From a virus, in the IMG/VR virus record IMGVR_UViG_3300005921_000003, positions 1-50,126 of that record: a DNA stretch of 50,126 nucleotides; one strand, 5' to 3'. The notes beneath the pieces were generated by a model, which was not told the origin of the DNA, made no database searches, and was given only the letters and a program-made list of their open reading frames with translations. How positions within the stretch are numbered: position 1 is the first letter of the stretch; every line of letters starts with the position of its first letter. Both the position numbers and the translations under genes were made by a program. Of the stretch, positions 2,030-50,126 are shown one piece after another.

Positions 2030-2920
2030 ATGACTTGTTGCGTCGCGGCTTTAGCCGATAACGCGCGTACGATCATTCTGGTTAGTGACCGCCAAATTGG
2101 GTTACGGATGATTTCAACCGACCCTGAAACGGTAAAAGCCAGGCAAGTTCATCCTAGATGGTGGCTGATGTACGCGGGTGATGATATCTCCCCGATTTTC
2201 AACATTGCGGACGCCATTCAAGAGGCGCTGAAAGAGCTAAGCGGTGGGCAGGCAGCAATAGACAATAATGCTACGACTATCCCGTCAATCTCGGACGTCG
2301 AGAAAAAGGTGAGCGAATGCGTCCAAAACGAGCGCCAAGCGGAGGTTGAAGCTCAATACCTGCGGCCACGGGGCTGGACGTTTGATACATTCCAACGGCA
2401 GGCACCCCACTTGCCCAAAAAACTTGTGACCTCAGTAGTCAACGAAGTCAACTCTCATGATATGCCGATATCATTGCTGCTCGCTGGATTCGATCGCCTA
2501 GGCTACGGATATTTGTTTACCGTCTACGGAACATCTATGTATCCTCGTCGCCACGATAATCCCGGCTATACGGCGATCGGGAGTGGCAGCGAGGCGGCTC
2601 AGTATTGGATGGGATACCGAGATATTGGGTACTTGTCTGGTTCCCGAGAGGTATTATACTCAGCGGTTGAAGGCAAATACTTCGCTGAGCTTTCACTTGG
2701 CGTTGGCGAATATACCGACGTTCATATCCTGCGCGCAGACAAGCCGGTACTAAGACTTTCGGACGACCTGATTGATAAGCAGATAATAGAGCCAATTCTT
2801 AAACGCATGGCCCCACGTTGGATAAGCGACGCTTTCCGAAAGAGGCTTAACACGATAGAAGTCTTGCAAGACCTTCCGCTGCTTAAGCTCGATAAGGAAC
2901 CTAAGCCCGCAGCTACTTAG
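2030..2920 (+). CDS. Proteasome-like Ntn hydrolase
   Basis: 296 residues from ATG 2030, preceded by GAGGGAGG. Removal of Met exposes TCCVAAL, so Thr becomes the N-terminal nucleophile as in proteasome beta subunits, Anbu and HslV. In Thr-1 numbering there is an SDR motif with Asp19 and a Lys35. The spacing of 16 equals that of canonical Asp17/Lys33. An AGDD turn (about residues 49-52) and a GSGSEAA motif (about 184-190) match the family's conserved glycine loops. Length exceeds a bare beta subunit (about 200-230), with an extra mid-region and C-terminal tail. Its 3' end overlaps the convergent transposase by 4 bp (shared TTAG). Substrate is unknown: candidates are processing of phage proteins, attack on a host protein, or an amidohydrolase role. 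The start could instead be GTG 2015. Confidence 0.7.
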   Translation: MTCCVAALADNARTIILVSDRQIGLRMISTDPETVKARQVHPRWWLMYAGDDISPIFNIADAIQEALKELSGGQAAIDNNATTIPSISDVEKKVSECVQNERQAEVEAQYLRPRGWTFDTFQRQAPHLPKKLVTSVVNEVNSHDMPISLLLAGFDRLGYGYLFTVYGTSMYPRRHDNPGYTAIGSGSEAAQYWMGYRDIGYLSGSREVLYSAVEGKYFAELSLGVGEYTDVHILRADKPVLRLSDDLIDKQIIEPILKRMAPRWISDAFRKRLNTIEVLQDLPLLKLDKEPKPAAT

Positions 2921-3771
2921 GCGGCCTCGCTATCCCGCAGAACGTCTGGCAGCCTAGCTAGGTCATGCAACGTCCAGATGCGATCGGTAACGCCCGCTGC
3001 GATTGCCGGCGTCGTCTTTACTGCGGCATGGCGCTTGATGAAGTTATAATACATAAAGTGCAGCGCGATCGCTCGCTGGTGGTTTTGCGCCTTCTTGGAG
3101 AAGGCGTTGGTCAGCCGCGTAAATCGCCGAATATGCATCCGCATCGTCAGGTTATTGCGCTCAACGTGGGCGGTCGTAATATGGTCCGGGTCAGGAGCGC
3201 CCCAAACTGAGGTGCGGATGACGTCCGTGACCACCATTGGCGAATACTTGGTATCGGCGCTCTCGAAGGGAATCCGCCCGTAAACCTTCACCTCGGTTCC
3301 GTGATCGGCGCGAGGAAACAGGGTTTCGATCGGCTCGTTATAGATGCCGAAGCCATCGGTCGTTATTTGGACCGCAGCCGATCTCACCCGCTCGGCTAGG
3401 TCGCGAATGAACCGCCAGGCGTCATCACGGCTACGCTTGCCAAGGTGCCAGGATACTACTAGCTTCGAATCGGGGTCTATCGCGGTCCAGGTCCACATAT
3501 CGCCCAGGCCAAGGGTTCCGCGCAGGTCCCGCTTGAGATTCTTCTCTTTGGCATAGCAGAAGGACCAAACCTCATCGCATTGGATGCGCGCGGAGCACAG
3601 GTTCCGCAGGTTCGCGAATTGGTACTCGTCGCAAGCATCGCCAACCTCAGCTAGGAGCTTAACAACCGTATTCTTCGCAGCTCCGGTCATGCGGCAAGTG
3701 GCGCGAATAGAAGCGCCTTCGCAAAGCGCAGCGAGAACCTGAACGCGCTTCTCTAACGGCAACCGATTCAT
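2917..3771 (-). CDS. IS1-type DDE transposase
   Basis: 284 residues from ATG 3771. An N-terminal helix-turn-helix (RATCRMTGAAKNTVVKLL) is followed by a DDE core: CDEVWSF (first Asp), ITTDGFGIY (second Asp), HVERNNLTMRMH (Glu). The C-terminus has the family-typical TRLTNAFSKK and YYNFIKRH. This matches the widespread IS1-annotated orphan transposases seen in chromosomes and phages. I chose ATG 3771 over the upstream GTG because the latter includes the -10 box. No terminal inverted repeats or target duplication are visible, and the 3' end runs directly into the Ntn hydrolase stop, so this is not an obvious intact insertion sequence. It looks full length and possibly active. Confidence 0.88.
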   Translation of the reverse strand: MNRLPLEKRVQVLAALCEGASIRATCRMTGAAKNTVVKLLAEVGDACDEYQFANLRNLCSARIQCDEVWSFCYAKEKNLKRDLRGTLGLGDMWTWTAIDPDSKLVVSWHLGKRSRDDAWRFIRDLAERVRSAAVQITTDGFGIYNEPIETLFPRADHGTEVKVYGRIPFESADTKYSPMVVTDVIRTSVWGAPDPDHITTAHVERNNLTMRMHIRRFTRLTNAFSKKAQNHQRAIALHFMYYNFIKRHAAVKTTPAIAAGVTDRIWTLHDLARLPDVLRDSEAA

Positions 3772-3777
3772 GCTTAT

Positions 3778-3806
3778 ATTATACTTCACCGATCAAGCAT
3801 TCGCAA
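3778..3806 (-). promoter_or_regulatory. Leaderless-type promoter of the transposase
   Basis: On the - strand: TTGCGA (3806-3801), 17-bp spacer, perfect TATAAT (3783-3778), then 6 nt to the ATG at 3771. A direct repeat CAAGCAT (+ strand, 3794-3800 and 3804-3810, 10 bp apart, so on one DNA face) overlaps the spacer and -35 and may be an operator. Confidence 0.75.
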
Positions 3807-8059: not shown

Positions 8060-8303
8060 CACAAAAATGGTTGGCGAGGCTTACGCCTATCGTGGCCCGT
8101 GGGACATTTCAGTTTGGAAGCCCGAAGGAATCACGTTGCATCGCAGAATGAAAGCTAAGGAGCGGTGCGAAGCTAAAACCAGACAGGGAAAGAAATGCAA
8201 GCACCGAGCGCTGTATCTTGACTTCCACACGAGCAAAATCGTTTGCTTCTGCTGGCAGCATAAACACAACCTCGAACCCGGCGTGATGTGGGTGGGCGCA
8301 TGA
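8046..8303 (+). CDS. Small zinc-finger-like phage protein
   Basis: 85 residues. The second half carries [17 protein letters not shown] then [10 protein letters not shown], a Cys/His arrangement found in many small phage proteins in replication regions (pattern RCxAxTxxGxxCkxxA...CxxH). Probably zinc and nucleic-acid binding. Its stop overlaps the ATG of the HNH gene. Confidence 0.6.
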
Positions 8304-8773
8304 TCGCCGAACTACAAGCCGAGCCGCGTCGTCGTAAGCATCCGCCGATAGAAGTTAGATTCTGGCGATTTGTCGAGCCAATTCCGGAGGGAGACGGCTG
8401 CTGGGAATGGACCGGCGGACTCTCAAAAGGTTACGGACACATTACTCGCGGTAATCGTAAAATGGCTAAGGCGCATCGCATAAGTTGGGAGCTTCACTTT
8501 GGAGAAATCCCGGACGGGCTATGCGTTTGTCATCGCTGCGACAATCGCTCGTGCGTGAATCCGTCGCACCTCTTCCTGGGAACCTACGATGACAACAACC
8601 AGGATATGATCGCCAAGGGTAGATTTAGGCATATGCTTCGCAGCGATACCTGTGTTCACGGGCACCATTCTTACTGTATCCTTCGCGCCGGAGCGAGCGC
8701 GGGTCGTCAGGTTTGCGCCGAGTGCGGCCGTTTACGGTGCGCTGCGCTTAGAGCGCGGAAGGCCGCGTTATGA
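8300..8773 (+). CDS. HNH homing-type endonuclease
   Basis: 157 residues from ATG 8300. A DNA-recognition segment ([18 protein letters not shown]...[11 protein letters not shown]) leads into the HNH core [19 protein letters not shown]. This is the layout of the phage AP2/HNH-type nucleases with WxWxG and CVNPxHL motifs. The C-terminus adds CVHGH and CAECG zinc-binding pairs. Such genes are usually mobile and cut DNA near their own insertion point. It is one of three HNH genes here, with 11069 and 48641. Confidence 0.85.
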
Positions 8774-8973
8774 TTTGGGAAGAGCAACAAGCTCGTAAGC
8801 GCAACGAGCGCGAGCCACGCGATTGGGCGACCTACCGCGACGCTTTGATCGAAAGCGGGATGGTTGAGGAGGCGCACTACCGACGGCATATCGAGGACGG
8901 CCAAAACTTTTGCTCCCAACCGTTCATCGAGGCCGCCGCGCTCGCGCGAAAAGATCGAGCCCACCCTCGTTGA
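8770..8973 (+). CDS. Hypothetical protein, probably frameshifted
   Basis: 67 residues as read, starting in an ATGA overlap with the HNH gene. After EAAALAR the frame ends quickly (KDRAHPR). The +1 frame from the same point gives a protein-like continuation ([19 protein letters not shown]...) to a TAA at 9035-9037. Loss of one A from the A4 run at 8949-8952 would join them into about 88 residues. Either a sequencing indel, a natural mutation or programmed +1 shifting could explain this. Confidence 0.5.
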
Positions 8974-9040
8974 CGCTCTATTCCTTGAAAAGCATGGCCG
9001 CACCCTCGATGCCGAACCCTACGCGGAGGACGCCTAAGGC

Positions 9041-9069
9041 TTGCGTGCGGGGCAGCGGTAGGGTAGAAT
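9041..9069 (+). promoter_or_regulatory. Promoter of the primase-helicase leader
   Basis: TTGCGT (9041-9046), 17-bp spacer, TAGAAT (9064-9069). Expected start is near 9076. It begins a leader of about 160 nt before the GTG at 9238, in contrast to the leaderless promoters elsewhere. Confidence 0.6.
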
Positions 9070-9075
9070 CTAAGA

Positions 9076-9237
9076 GCGAGCGCCGCCGACGGGTAGCGCA
9101 AAGCGAGTTACTTTGGCGCCGAAGGGCGCTTTGCCGAAGGGCGTCCGACAGCGCAAGTAACCGGCGCTAGCACCTTTTCGACCGAGCCTCTCCGACGCAG
9201 TTTGGAGAGGTTTCGTCTTGTCTAAAAAACCGGCTTC
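9076..9237 (+). ncRNA. Structured 5' leader, candidate riboswitch or attenuator
   Basis: A closing helix AGCG (9102-9105) plus GTTACTT (9107-9113) pairs with AAGTAAC (9155-9161) plus CGCT (9165-9168). Inside are two hairpins capped by GAAG: GCGCC/GGCGC (9116-9129) and GCC/GGC (9133-9142), so the RNA looks like a junction. Downstream, CCTCTCC (9187-9193) pairs with GGAGAGG (9204-9210), extendable by A-U and G-U pairs. The 3' arm is the only good Shine-Dalgarno sequence, and a U-rich run follows it. The SD would serve TTG 9218, opening a 7-codon leader (MSKKPAS) whose stop overlaps the primase GTG. It matches no riboswitch class I know. Confidence 0.5.
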
Positions 9238-11091
9238 GTGACCCCGCTGCAAGCCGCTCTCGGCTATGCGAAACGCGGAATGTACGTTTTCCCCTGCTGG
9301 CCTGGCAAGAAAACCCCGATCACCGAAAAAGGGCTGCTCGAGGCTACACTCGACTCGAAGCAAATCACAACCTGGTGGAAGCGAACGCCGTATGCGAACG
9401 TAGCCATTTCATGCGGCCCGAGCGGGATCGTCGTTCTCGACGTTGACCCCCGCAACGGCGGCGACGCGAGCTTCGAGGGCCTACGCTCTGAGCTCGGATC
9501 TGCGGCCTTCGATACTAAGACCCAGACCACGCCGAGCGGCGGAACGCATTACCTTTACCGCGCTCCGTCTGAGCCGGTCGCCAACAGCTCGAGCCTTATC
9601 GCCCCAGGCATTGACGTCCGCGGGATGGGCGGATACATCCTCGTACCGCCGAGCCGGAACGGAACCGCTGGATACGTTTGGGAGGTATCGAGCCGGGATA
9701 TAACACTCGCGGACTTCCCAAAGGCGCTCCAGGACCGCCTACGGCCCAAGAAAACTAGCTTTGAAACGGCCGACGCGGTGATCGAGGGCGGCCGAAACCA
9801 TTTCCTAGCCTCGATGGCCGGCGCCCTCCGCCGTAAGGGACTCTCTGCGAGCGAGATTCACGCTGCGATCGGGATGGCGAACAAGGACCGCTGCAAGCCT
9901 CCGCTCGAGGAAAAAGAAGTCGCGGCGATTGCCAAGAGCATCGGAAGGTACGAGCCGAGCGATCCACTACGCCCGCTCACGGTTAGCACCCTCGGGCTCC
10001 TCACCTTCGACCAGCTTTGCGAACGGACAAAAGAGCAAGTGGAATGGATGATCGAGGGGCTTCTACGCCAATCGGGGCTCATGCTGCTTGCCGGCCGCCC
10101 CAAGGTCGGGAAGTCAGCCCTGGCACGCAACCTGGCCCTGTCTGTCGCCACGGGGCAGCCATTCTTAGGCCGACGCTGCATAGCCGGGAAGGTCATCTGG
10201 CTCGGGCTCGAGGAACCCGCGACCGAGCTCCGAGATAAGCTCGAGATCATGGGCGCTCAGGGCCTGCCTATCCTCTACCGGGTGGACCCGTTTGCCGGCG
10301 ATGAGCTCGAGTGGCTTCGCCTCGCCGTGGACACCGAGCGACCCGCGATGGTGATTATCGACACCATCGGCCGGTTCTCCAAGATCGAAAACATCAACGA
10401 CTACTCCCAGGTGACTCGAGCCACGCAGCCCATCCTGGACCTGCGAGATCGCTTCGGGACGACCTTCGTTCTCCTCCACCACAATAACAACTCCAACAGC
10501 CCGCTTGGCAGCACGCAATGGCAAGGCGTCCCCGACGTCATCGTTTCGCTCACCAAGAACGAGGACGACACTCGGTTCGTTAAGAGCATCGGCCAAAGGA
10601 GCGGCCTCGAACTCGAGCCAACCGCCCTCACGCTTGACCACGATACCGGCCGCATCGTTGGCGAGGAGTCTCGAGCGATCGTTGACCAGCGCACCGCGGA
10701 GCAGCGAATCCTGAGCGCCGTCGAAAACGGCGTCCAATACACCCGCGAACAACTCGCCCGGCTCGGGGCGCGCAAGCTCCGCTACGGCCGCGCTGCGGTT
10801 GATTCGCTGGCGAGCGCGGGATTTTTTAAGACCATCGGTAGTGGGTCAAGAGGGGATCCGAGATTCTACCTGCCCGCGACGCCCGAAGAATCCAATTCCT
10901 CGGTTTCTTCGGGATGGGGTCTTAAGGACGAGGAACCCGAACGTCCCGACCATCGGGCTCAAGAAAAGCCCGAGGAAAGCCCTATGAAACCCGAGCGACC
11001 CGAGGAACCCGTAGAGTCCGAAGAACCCGACCTATTGTTAGCTTACGCTGAAGAAAGGCTAGGAAGCTATGATGAGATACCTGGGGCCTGA
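9238..11091 (+). CDS. Primase-polymerase / replicative helicase fusion
   Basis: 617 residues. The N-terminal prim-pol domain (about 1-165) has the metal pair in VVLDVD (Asp68, Asp70), then TPSGGTHYLY and GIDVRGMGGYILVPP. A PriCT-like helical domain follows (about 180-235). A RecA-fold (RepA/AAA_25) helicase comes next, with Walker A GRPKVGKSA (about 285-293), Walker B MVIIDT (about 371-376) and FVLLHHNN (about 410). A winged-helix-like segment (about 480-540) and an acidic Glu/Pro-rich tail end the protein. It should prime and unwind phage DNA. No DNA polymerase A/B/C gene is present, so host polymerase is presumably recruited. Starts at GTG in a GTGA overlap with a leader peptide. Confidence 0.88.
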   Translation: MTPLQAALGYAKRGMYVFPCWPGKKTPITEKGLLEATLDSKQITTWWKRTPYANVAISCGPSGIVVLDVDPRNGGDASFEGLRSELGSAAFDTKTQTTPSGGTHYLYRAPSEPVANSSSLIAPGIDVRGMGGYILVPPSRNGTAGYVWEVSSRDITLADFPKALQDRLRPKKTSFETADAVIEGGRNHFLASMAGALRRKGLSASEIHAAIGMANKDRCKPPLEEKEVAAIAKSIGRYEPSDPLRPLTVSTLGLLTFDQLCERTKEQVEWMIEGLLRQSGLMLLAGRPKVGKSALARNLALSVATGQPFLGRRCIAGKVIWLGLEEPATELRDKLEIMGAQGLPILYRVDPFAGDELEWLRLAVDTERPAMVIIDTIGRFSKIENINDYSQVTRATQPILDLRDRFGTTFVLLHHNNNSNSPLGSTQWQGVPDVIVSLTKNEDDTRFVKSIGQRSGLELEPTALTLDHDTGRIVGEESRAIVDQRTAEQRILSAVENGVQYTREQLARLGARKLRYGRAAVDSLASAGFFKTIGSGSRGDPRFYLPATPEESNSSVSSGWGLKDEEPERPDHRAQEKPEESPMKPERPEEPVESEEPDLLLAYAEERLGSYDEIPGA

Positions 11092-11554
11092 GCCCTGTCG
11101 CCATGCTCAATTCGAGCCGCGGCTGAGAACGCTATCGAATAACACGGTTCACGTTTGGAACCAATGCTTGTCGTGCGGTGCCCCGGTTGGGAGTGCGCGA
11201 CCCAAGGCAAAGTACGATCTACCTAAACTCGAGCCGTTCAATGAGGAAGCCGTAGGCCGCCTGAAGGCCGAGGAGCGCGGATCCCCGCCTCCGTGGAACG
11301 ACGACTTCTGGCGGTGGTATACGCTCTATCTCGAGAGCCCAACCTGGGCAGAGAAGCGCGGCGCGGTGCTAGCGCGGGACCGGGAGCGATGCCAAGCGTG
11401 CCTCGTAGAGCGGGCGACCCAGGCCCACCATTTGACCTATCGGCACATTGGCCGAGAGCCGCTCTTCGAACTTACGGCGGTCTGTGAGCCGTGTCACACC
11501 CTGATAACGGCGATGGATCGCGGTCAGAACCGGGACGATACCCTCCCGTGGTGA
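11069..11554 (+). CDS. HNH endonuclease
   Basis: 161 residues. The C-terminal half has WAEKRGAVLARDRERCQAC, then AQAHHLTYRHIG-like TQAHHLTYRHIGREPLFEL and CEPCH. This is the ββα-metal HNH fold with two CxxC zinc knuckles. The N-terminus contains an additional CLSCG. Overlaps the helicase gene by 23 bp and the next GTG by 4 bp. Unlike 8300, it lacks the WxWxG/CVNPxHL layout and resembles the McrA-like subgroup. It could be a homing nuclease or help DNA processing. Confidence 0.82.
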   Translation: MMRYLGPEPCRHAQFEPRLRTLSNNTVHVWNQCLSCGAPVGSARPKAKYDLPKLEPFNEEAVGRLKAEERGSPPPWNDDFWRWYTLYLESPTWAEKRGAVLARDRERCQACLVERATQAHHLTYRHIGREPLFELTAVCEPCHTLITAMDRGQNRDDTLPW

Positions 11555-12714: not shown

Positions 12715-14058
12715 ATGAAACGATTCCTTCCCCTAGCGCTCGCCGCGCTTGCCGCCTGCTCCGGTGGTGGAAGCGGTGGCGGATCCGGCCCCCCGCCGAC
12801 AGCCCAACCTACCGGGCGACAGCACGGGCCCCTGCCGCCGATTCAGCACGTCGTTGTGATCGTCCAGGAGAACCGTTCGTTCGACAATCTATTCAATGGG
12901 TTTCCCGGTGCGAACACGCAAAGCTACGGGATGAACTCCAGCGGCCAGCAGGTGCCGCTCCAGCCCGTATCCCTCACCGCGCCTTACGACCTGTCGCACA
13001 TTCACGAAGGCTTCAAGCGTGAGTATGCCGGCGGGGCGCTCAATGGGTTCAACCTGGTCGGCGTGACCTGCAAGCGCTCGTCCTGCCCACCGCCAGGAAC
13101 CGCGGCCTACGCCTACGTTCCGCGGTCGGAGATTCAGCCGTATTGGGACCTCGCCTCGCAGTACGTTCTGGCCGACGAAATGTTTCAGAGCAACGAAGGC
13201 CCGTCGTTCCCGGCGCATCAGTATCTCGTCAGCGGGACGTCAACGATCGCCGACGGCTCGAACCTTCGCGCGGACGACAACGCCGCGGACCCGCACGGCA
13301 CCGCAGGCCAAGGCGGGTGCGACTCGATGCCAGGAACGACCACCAAGGTCATCGACGAAGCGGGGCAGCAGAAGGACGGGCCGTTTCCGTGCTACAACCG
13401 CCTCTCCATCTTCGACCTGCTGGACAACGCGGGCGTGAGTTGGAAATACTACGAGTGGCGCGTTGGGCCGGGTTCGTGGAACGGAGCCGACGCCATCAAA
13501 CAGATTTGGCAGAAGCCCGAGTACCACCAAAACGTGGTGCAGCCTCCTTCGCAGGTGTTGACCGACATCGCGAATGGTACGCTGCCTGCCGTGTCGTTCG
13601 TCACGCCGACCGCGCTTGCGTCGGACCACGCGATACACACCGACGGCTCAGGGCCCGCCTGGGTCGCGAGCGTGGTGAACGCGATTGGCGCATCGAAGTA
13701 TTGGCAGAACACGGCGGTTATCTTTACCGAAGATGACTGGGGCGGCTGGTATGACAATGTCCCGCCAAGGCAACTAAACAGTTACGAATTGGGATTCAGG
13801 GTCCCGCTTATCGTTATTTCTCCATACGCAAAGACGGGATTCGTAAGCCATACGCAGTATGAATTTGGCTCCATTCTTAAGTTTATTGAGGAAGAGTTCA
13901 ACCTTCCGTCAATGAATACTACGGATGCTAGGTCCGCGGATTTGTCAGATTGCTTCAACCCATCTCAGAAGCTACGCCACTTTCGACATATAAAATCCAA
14001 GCTAGGGCCAGCGTACTTTCTGCGGCAAAGGAACGAGGGGAGCCCGGATGATGACTAA
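12715..14058 (+). CDS. Lipoprotein phosphoesterase (phospholipase C / acid phosphatase family)
   Basis: 447 residues. A lipoprotein signal ends in LAAC (Cys15), followed by a flexible Gly/Ser/Pro linker. The phosphoesterase (PF04185) core follows: VVIVQENRSFDNLFNG (about 47-62), GPSFPAHQYLVSG, EDDWGGWYDNVPP (about 339-351) and RVPLIVISPYAK. All main motifs are present, so it should be active. Family members release phosphate or head groups from phospholipids or other phosphate esters outside the cytoplasm. It begins 10 nt after the DUF1064 gene with GAAAGGA. It looks like a host-derived cargo (auxiliary) gene, useful for phosphate supply or envelope modification. Confidence 0.85.
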   Translation: MKRFLPLALAALAACSGGGSGGGSGPPPTAQPTGRQHGPLPPIQHVVVIVQENRSFDNLFNGFPGANTQSYGMNSSGQQVPLQPVSLTAPYDLSHIHEGFKREYAGGALNGFNLVGVTCKRSSCPPPGTAAYAYVPRSEIQPYWDLASQYVLADEMFQSNEGPSFPAHQYLVSGTSTIADGSNLRADDNAADPHGTAGQGGCDSMPGTTTKVIDEAGQQKDGPFPCYNRLSIFDLLDNAGVSWKYYEWRVGPGSWNGADAIKQIWQKPEYHQNVVQPPSQVLTDIANGTLPAVSFVTPTALASDHAIHTDGSGPAWVASVVNAIGASKYWQNTAVIFTEDDWGGWYDNVPPRQLNSYELGFRVPLIVISPYAKTGFVSHTQYEFGSILKFIEEEFNLPSMNTTDARSADLSDCFNPSQKLRHFRHIKSKLGPAYFLRQRNEGSPDDD

Positions 14059-49124: not shown

Positions 49125-49328
49125 CTATCCTCCGTTTAGCTTTATCGGTTCTATTCGTCTATTTGGATGCTCCCTATTAAAAATCCCACAATTAGCGCAG
49201 GCATCGAAGGCGTCGTTGATGCAGGTCTGTCTTGCCTCGGGGATCGGCGCGCCGGAGAACCTCCGCAGGTCGGTCAGCGTACTCGCCAGCCTCACCGTCA
49301 ACTCGCGACGGTCGCGTTCGATATTCAT
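49125..49328 (-). CDS. Hypothetical protein
   Basis: 67 residues. Helical (RRELTVRLASTL; ARQTCINDAFDACANCGIFN). The CANC motif could bind metal. ATGA-coupled upstream. Confidence 0.5.
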   Translation of the reverse strand: MNIERDRRELTVRLASTLTDLRRFSGAPIPEARQTCINDAFDACANCGIFNREHPNRRIEPIKLNGG

Positions 49329-49408
49329 TCCCCGCGAAAGATCACAACCATGACGAAAAGGAAAAACACTGCCGCTGCAATCACTCCGACGACTTGATCG
49401 ACGCTCAC
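49325..49408 (-). CDS. Membrane microprotein
   Basis: 27 residues from GTG 49408: one transmembrane helix (VIAAAVFFLFVMVVIF) with short polar ends. Overlaps both neighbours by 4 bp. Confidence 0.5.
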   Translation of the reverse strand: MSVDQVVGVIAAAVFFLFVMVVIFRGE

Positions 49409-49623
49409 AGGTTCGTAATCACCTCGCCAGCAGAGAGGGGGCGGTGCAGCGCCATGAACGGCCAGACCGCCCAAATCCAACCGTCCCGAACCACATACAG
49501 CGTCCAGCTATGCCGCCAAAATACCAGCCACTTCGCCCCGAACAACCGCACGCACGCCCAGGCGATCAGCAGCCCCAGCCACCAAAGCAGCACCCACGGC
49601 CTGCTTATAAACGCCGGTTTCAT
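49405..49623 (-). CDS. Two-helix Trp-rich membrane protein
   Basis: 72 residues with two hydrophobic segments (WVLLWWLGLLIAWACVRLF and TLYVVRDGWIWAVWPFMAL). Function unknown. Overlaps its neighbours. Confidence 0.55.
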   Translation of the reverse strand: MKPAFISRPWVLLWWLGLLIAWACVRLFGAKWLVFWRHSWTLYVVRDGWIWAVWPFMALHRPLSAGEVITNL

Positions 49624-49853
49624 TCAACGAGTTTCCCTTGGGCTCTTAAGCTCGCAAGGAGTTTCGCTTTCATTTCGCCAGGCGTGATAATTACTTTGGC
49701 CGGACGGTAAAGTCTCGGGACTCCAGGTCCGTAAAATCGGCTGTTGATTGGCCTGTGCCCGCCGTACCCTTTGCGATAGCGCCGCGCCTGGCTTGTCTCG
49801 CGGTTCTTTTTCGTGGCAAACGAATGCTTCGTTCGGTCAGGCATCACGCTCAT
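49620..49853 (-). CDS. Basic hypothetical protein
   Basis: 77 residues from ATG 49853 (MSVMPDRTKHSF...). A longer start at 49973 gives an Arg/Pro-rich extension that seems less likely. Basic N-terminus (TKKNRETSQARRYRKGYGGH) and a C-terminal KVIITPGEMKAKLLASLRAQ. No family recognised. Confidence 0.45.
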   Translation of the reverse strand: MSVMPDRTKHSFATKKNRETSQARRYRKGYGGHRPINSRFYGPGVPRLYRPAKVIITPGEMKAKLLASLRAQGKLVE

Positions 49854-50046
49854 TCTGCGACAAAAATCACGGTAGCGCAAGACTTCCGGCGGTAGCGGGA
49901 TTCCAACCTCTTGCGGGCCAGCCCGGCCCGGTTGCGTTCTCCCTCTGGAGTGAGGGTGTTGTGGCAGGCTCAACTATACCGCCGATATTTCGAGAGAGCG
50001 ACGAGGGCCTACCCTTTGCGGGGATTTATGGCAACCCCGCCGCCAT

Positions 50047-50126
50047 TGAAACTCTCAGTCCCATCTTCGCAAAATTCACGCGCGCACGCAAGAGCGTTTC
50101 ACGTGGAACCGTTTTTCAAAAAAAAA
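50047..50126. repeat. Terminal direct repeat, right copy
   Basis: Identical to bases 1-80, including the parS-like site. Marks the closing point of the circular genome. Confidence 0.97.

Follow-up and report, generated by a model that had tools for sequence, protein, structure and literature searches.

Satellite phage P4 has a CI RNA leader, longer than the one described here, that precedes its alpha primase-helicase operon and exerts its effect by RNA-RNA pairing and premature termination. In phage T4 the Shine-Dalgarno sequences (SDs) of genes e, soc, 49 and I-TevI are sequestered in hairpins; for e and I-TevI the long transcripts from upstream are silent, and a nearby late promoter gives transcripts that are unable to form the hairpin (PMC3014915, PMC2988022). 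The T4 replication genes 32 and 43 are under autogenous translational control, the gene 43 operator being a hairpin about 40 nt 5' of the start codon, with a bound sequence that overlaps the ribosome site, and that of gene 32 being a pseudoknot (PMC3014915). The isrK-orf45-anrP locus of Gifsy-1 has two competing folds, a trans-acting short isoform and a longer ORF, and acts as a small RNA as well as an mRNA (PMC4825925).

We analysed a leader in front of a primase-helicase gene within a window of 50,126 bases, an IMG/VR virus record that encodes a P22/SU10-type portal and a large terminase, with early genes on the + strand and late genes on the - strand. Judged by sequence comparison, the lineage of this uncultured phage appears to have no close relatives among those sequenced. 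Contig L004 (17 kb) matches the window at about 92-99% identity across most of the late region and spans the window's end and start (49195-50126 and 1-1155), with around 300 bases about the joint absent from L004. Because L004 crosses the window's ends, the genome probably has a circular or circularly permuted form, of which the record would be a near-complete map. It also holds an IS1/IS240-type DDE transposase-like gene (2917-3789, -) and, amid the early genes, a phosphoesterase-family protein (12715-14058, +; PF04185, E=2.5e-57) that has no PHROGs match and is unusual phage cargo.

The primase-helicase gene (9238-11091, +) has Prim-Pol (PF09250, E=1.1e-37), PriCT-1 (PF08708) and AAA_25 (PF13481) domains according to Pfam and starts at a GTG with no SD of its own. 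HNH endonuclease genes, possibly homing endonucleases, lie on either side of the primase region (8288-8773 and 11069-11554, both +). In the gene that follows the first of these (8770-9037, +) codon usage passes from frame 1 (8770-8973) to frame 2 until the TAA at 9035-9037, which suggests a one-base shift near 8900-8950, either real or an assembly error. Since this gene reads on in the second frame to that stop, the noncoding part is 9038-9217 (+), reaching to a TTG mini-ORF; codon-usage scoring gives no clear coding signal in these approximately 180 nt, which lie within an otherwise tight operon. A protein-coding leader was rejected, the open frames at 9074-9160 and 9097-9222 having no ATG or GTG start and codon scores that are near neutral to weak.

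We propose that the replication operon has in this stretch a noncoding 5' leader specific to the phage, and that the leader acts as a translational brake, static or autogenous, with a coupled mini-ORF, a reading to which we give a probability of about 0.42. It would probably be nothing out of the ordinary for translational control in phages. An earlier note on this DNA had presented the leader as a riboswitch-like element; the landmarks that it picked out are real, its account of the leader structure is an over-reading, and the riboswitch claim is unsupported.

The brake reading rests on a hairpin at 9180-9217 (+), in which the SD GGAGAGG (9204-9210, +; 7 nt 5' of the TTG) forms the 3' arm. 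Folded alone, this hairpin (39 nt) has a free energy of -21.6 kcal/mol, and it is predicted at every folded length with a pairing probability of 0.86-0.94. In the predicted fold the SD has a mean unpaired probability of 0.06, the lowest of 45 gene starts in the genome, and of the 95 NTG codons that have an SD-like core upstream about 2% are equally closed, the observed SD being counted in. The separate hairpin burying the sole good SD, as described in the earlier note, is thus borne out, and the predicted pairing of the SD inside a stable local hairpin is that of T4-type sequestration. Both the stability of the hairpin across folded lengths and the closure of the SD argue for a brake, and the hairpin may also form in vivo.

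The strength of the hairpin has to be set against the composition of the leader. A GC-rich spacer may fold like any such sequence, in which case the SD match would be coincidental and the primase would be translated from GTG 9238 without an SD. Equally stable local hairpins arose in 35 of 300 leader shuffles (12%), which weakens the case for a brake, and 26 further sites in the genome reach a stability of at least -21 kcal/mol. The stability of the leader fold is modest (z = -1.6 over 110 nt and -2.45 over 188 nt; rank about 20 among 2,500 windows of 160 nt), leader conservation was found nowhere searched, and many gene starts of the phage are without a good SD. However, chance folding does not readily explain why this SD should be the least accessible of the 45 starts, why proper SD spacing and a GTGA overlap should occur together in so orderly a way, or why 180 noncoding nt should be kept in a compact operon. 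We regard chance folding as unlikely, although it remains a serious rival. If the brake is not real, the lesson is that seeing structure by eye in a GC-rich leader gives weak support to a riboswitch.

The mini-ORF (9218-9241, +) comprises seven codons (MSKKPAS) from the TTG at 9218-9220, and its TGA (9239-9241) overlaps the primase GTG (9238-9240) within GTGA (9238-9241). The series of SD, MSKKPAS peptide and overlapping stop was found exactly where the earlier note had placed it. A stop that overlaps the next start, with a downstream gene lacking its own SD, is the arrangement of coupled ORFs; the SD duplex energy at the primase GTG is only -1.7 kcal/mol and there is no second good SD. These features argue for the brake and suggest that translation of the primase may be coupled to that of the mini-ORF. 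On the other side, the region of the primase GTG is accessible in the predicted fold (unpaired 0.68), so the mini-ORF may be dispensable.

We then compared the gene start with those of 124 non-redundant primase relatives, using mechanical ORF calls. The median gap between the upstream gene and the primase start is -4 nt; the two genes overlap or lie no more than 4 nt apart in 75 of the 124, a gap of at least 100 nt is found in eight, one has no gene within 700 nt, and many lack an SD of their own. The close spacing and the frequent lack of an SD are consistent with the brake. Since the primase start usually lies right behind or within the preceding gene, coupled starts are typical of the family and the leader is peculiar to this phage. 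From its sequence, the coupled partner here would be a 7-codon ORF behind a long leader.

The mini-ORF could itself be misread. If one A had been lost from the A6 run at 9224-9229 by an assembly indel, or were added by slippage, the primase would begin at TTG 9218 with MSKKTGFVTPLQAAL, and the mini-ORF would be an artefact while the SD hairpin would still be there. One added A does bring the TTG into the primase frame, and the gene directly upstream (8770-9037) likewise appears frame-broken. Against this, the two long blocks in which the window aligns with near-identical L004, 12.2 kb in all, have zero gaps, and the N-termini of primase relatives agree with a start at GTG 9238. This explanation is very improbable.

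Upstream of the SD hairpin lies a structured domain (9075-9178, +). Its long hairpin (9107-9161) is robust, with a pairing probability of 0.94 and 0.99 for the inner stem. The outer closing stem (9079-9084/9163-9168) varies with the folded length, its probability being 0.64-0.87 at some lengths and 0.006-0.05 at others; hence the stable closed junction that had been proposed is not borne out. Likewise, the two GAAG-capped hairpins placed within it have pairing probabilities of 0.0-0.001 at all lengths folded, and forcing them gives -39.6 kcal/mol vs -47.0 kcal/mol, a cost of 7.4 kcal/mol.

When the SD is opened in a nearest-neighbour model that leaves out pseudoknots, the cost is 16.4 kcal/mol in the presence of the leader and 17.4 kcal/mol in its absence. 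As removal of the leader scarcely alters the cost of opening, the upstream domain offers almost no competing partner, and no switching fold of the sort that serves as a riboswitch expression platform is visible in this model. A true riboswitch or protein-sensing switch, whose upstream domain would bind a ligand and alter access to the SD, is suggested by the layout, in which a separate SD hairpin comes after a structured domain. Against it stand the lack of competition between the domain and the SD hairpin, GAAG hairpins that the folding does not predict, an unstable junction and searches none of which found a leader homologue, and we hold such a switch to be highly unlikely. What stands of the ligand- or protein-sensing switch of the earlier note is cis control by SD sequestration, which is plausible and fits the anatomy; the sensor part is not supported. 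It is also improbable that the leader is a phage regulatory RNA without known relatives which gates primase-helicase translation, by itself or within the mRNA, through the buried SD and the coupled mini-ORF; if this were true, the onset of replication would be set by an RNA switch.

Homologues of the leader were sought in several ways. Rfam gave no match above the gathering threshold in the window, and a permissive run returned two sub-threshold, irrelevant matches. Comparison of the leader DNA with phages and plasmids in a distant mode gave chance matches only. The exact core of the leader and gapped patterns found nothing credible in IMG/VR and genome contigs, the 26 matches obtained being alike, on inspection, only in the two searched arms. 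Among 19 related phage records, collected via TerL and portal, there were short GC-rich matches only, none of them extending. A covariance model built from the single leader gave nothing credible on 86 sources and 80 genome loci, and no homologous leader was found among 160 loci with primase relatives. Hence, within the databases searched, a riboswitch-like leader has no support from conservation or covariation.

The primase gene itself has only distant relatives. A peptide scan of IMG/VR with the primase alone found no near relative, and the nearest by alignment reach an overall identity of about 33%, and of about 43% within the Prim-Pol domain. Prim-Pol is present in 2 of the 19 TerL/portal relatives, records with about 50% identical terminase or portal of which many are fragments; the replication module thus seems to be exchanged between relatives. 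In the one such relative that was compared, Prim-Pol is 24% identical and no comparable leader was seen upstream.

At the 5' end of the leader is a putative, weak sigma-70-like promoter (9041-9069, +), with TTGCGT at 9041-9046, a spacer of 17 and TAGAAT at 9064-9069. It is present as the earlier note had placed it, but the match is weak and common: it agrees with the consensus at 8 of 12 positions (3 of 6 in the -35 element), and 82 plus-strand sites in the window score that high. It is absent from the list of a stricter promoter scan. No other promoter-like site was seen in 8974-9238 even at 7/12, phage-specific promoters being outside the scan. If this promoter is used, transcription would start at about 9076.

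A promoter near 9041 would also allow a short noncoding transcript of about 140 nt, with the 9184-9213 hairpin as its terminator or attenuator and with read-through feeding the primase operon, in the manner of prophage circuits like those of Gifsy-1 isrK and the P4 CI leader. The SD hairpin does score as terminator-like, its 12 pairs making it the top-listed site of this type in the first 20 kb; the promoter-like site lies upstream of it, and the order of parts is shared with isrK-orf45-anrP, the overlap of a short ORF with the following gene being AUGA there. However, UUUCGUCUUGUC makes a weak U-tract as a tail, the number of terminator-like sites as a class is close to chance (28 found vs 21.4 expected), and there is no rival long-range fold such as that of isrK. 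We consider this explanation doubtful, yet like chance folding it is a serious rival of the brake.

The inverted repeats adjoin the Prim-Pol gene and could instead serve as a DNA element, a replication origin or an operator whose hairpin DNA is read by the Prim-Pol protein. Against this, no iteron array was found, the GC content around the site is 62%, the minimum of cumulative GC skew lies near 2-3 kb rather than at 9 kb, and the window holds no DnaA box. A replication origin at the leader was rejected in view of the composition and of the absence of iterons and DnaA boxes, and a DNA element of either kind is scarcely credible.

In the translational brake that we favour, the sole good SD would be held inside a strong hairpin and ribosomes would seldom initiate at the TTG of the mini-ORF. 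Ribosomes would get to the primase GTG by re-initiating at the GTGA overlap or by starting weakly, with no SD, in the A-rich segment, which is predicted to be accessible; the outcome would be a low output of primase-helicase. The absence of another SD and the 180-nt noncoding gap inside a tight operon favour such a scheme; it is weakened by the possibility that a -21.6 kcal/mol hairpin might silence the gene almost fully, there being no visible release route. The brake may be tightened by a bound phage protein in an autogenous repression like that of T4 gene 43; a protein regulator of the leader is suggested here by analogy. Should the brake prove real, translation of the primase-helicase would set when the genome is replicated, which would be a simple control of a replication gene through a coupled mini-ORF.

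Among the known systems, the P4 CI leader resembles this locus in being a structured leader ahead of a primase-helicase operon; it differs in its greater length and in its RNA-RNA pairing, for which no partners were identified in the phage leader. With isrK-orf45-anrP the locus shares a promoter, a structured leader, a terminator-like hairpin and a short ORF whose stop runs into the following start, as AUGA in Gifsy-1 and as GTGA in this phage, whereas no competing fold is seen in the phage leader. As with T4 genes 43 and 32, a replication gene has a structured translation-initiation region, which here is predicted from sequence, protein binding being only proposed. In contrast to T4 e and I-TevI, the gene is an early replication gene and not a late one, and no promoter-like site lies within the hairpin; a T4-type internal promoter giving transcripts that lack the 5' arm was considered, and none was seen in the promoter scan. 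With T4 e, soc, 49 and I-TevI the locus shares the layout of a phage mRNA whose SD would lie within a strong local hairpin.
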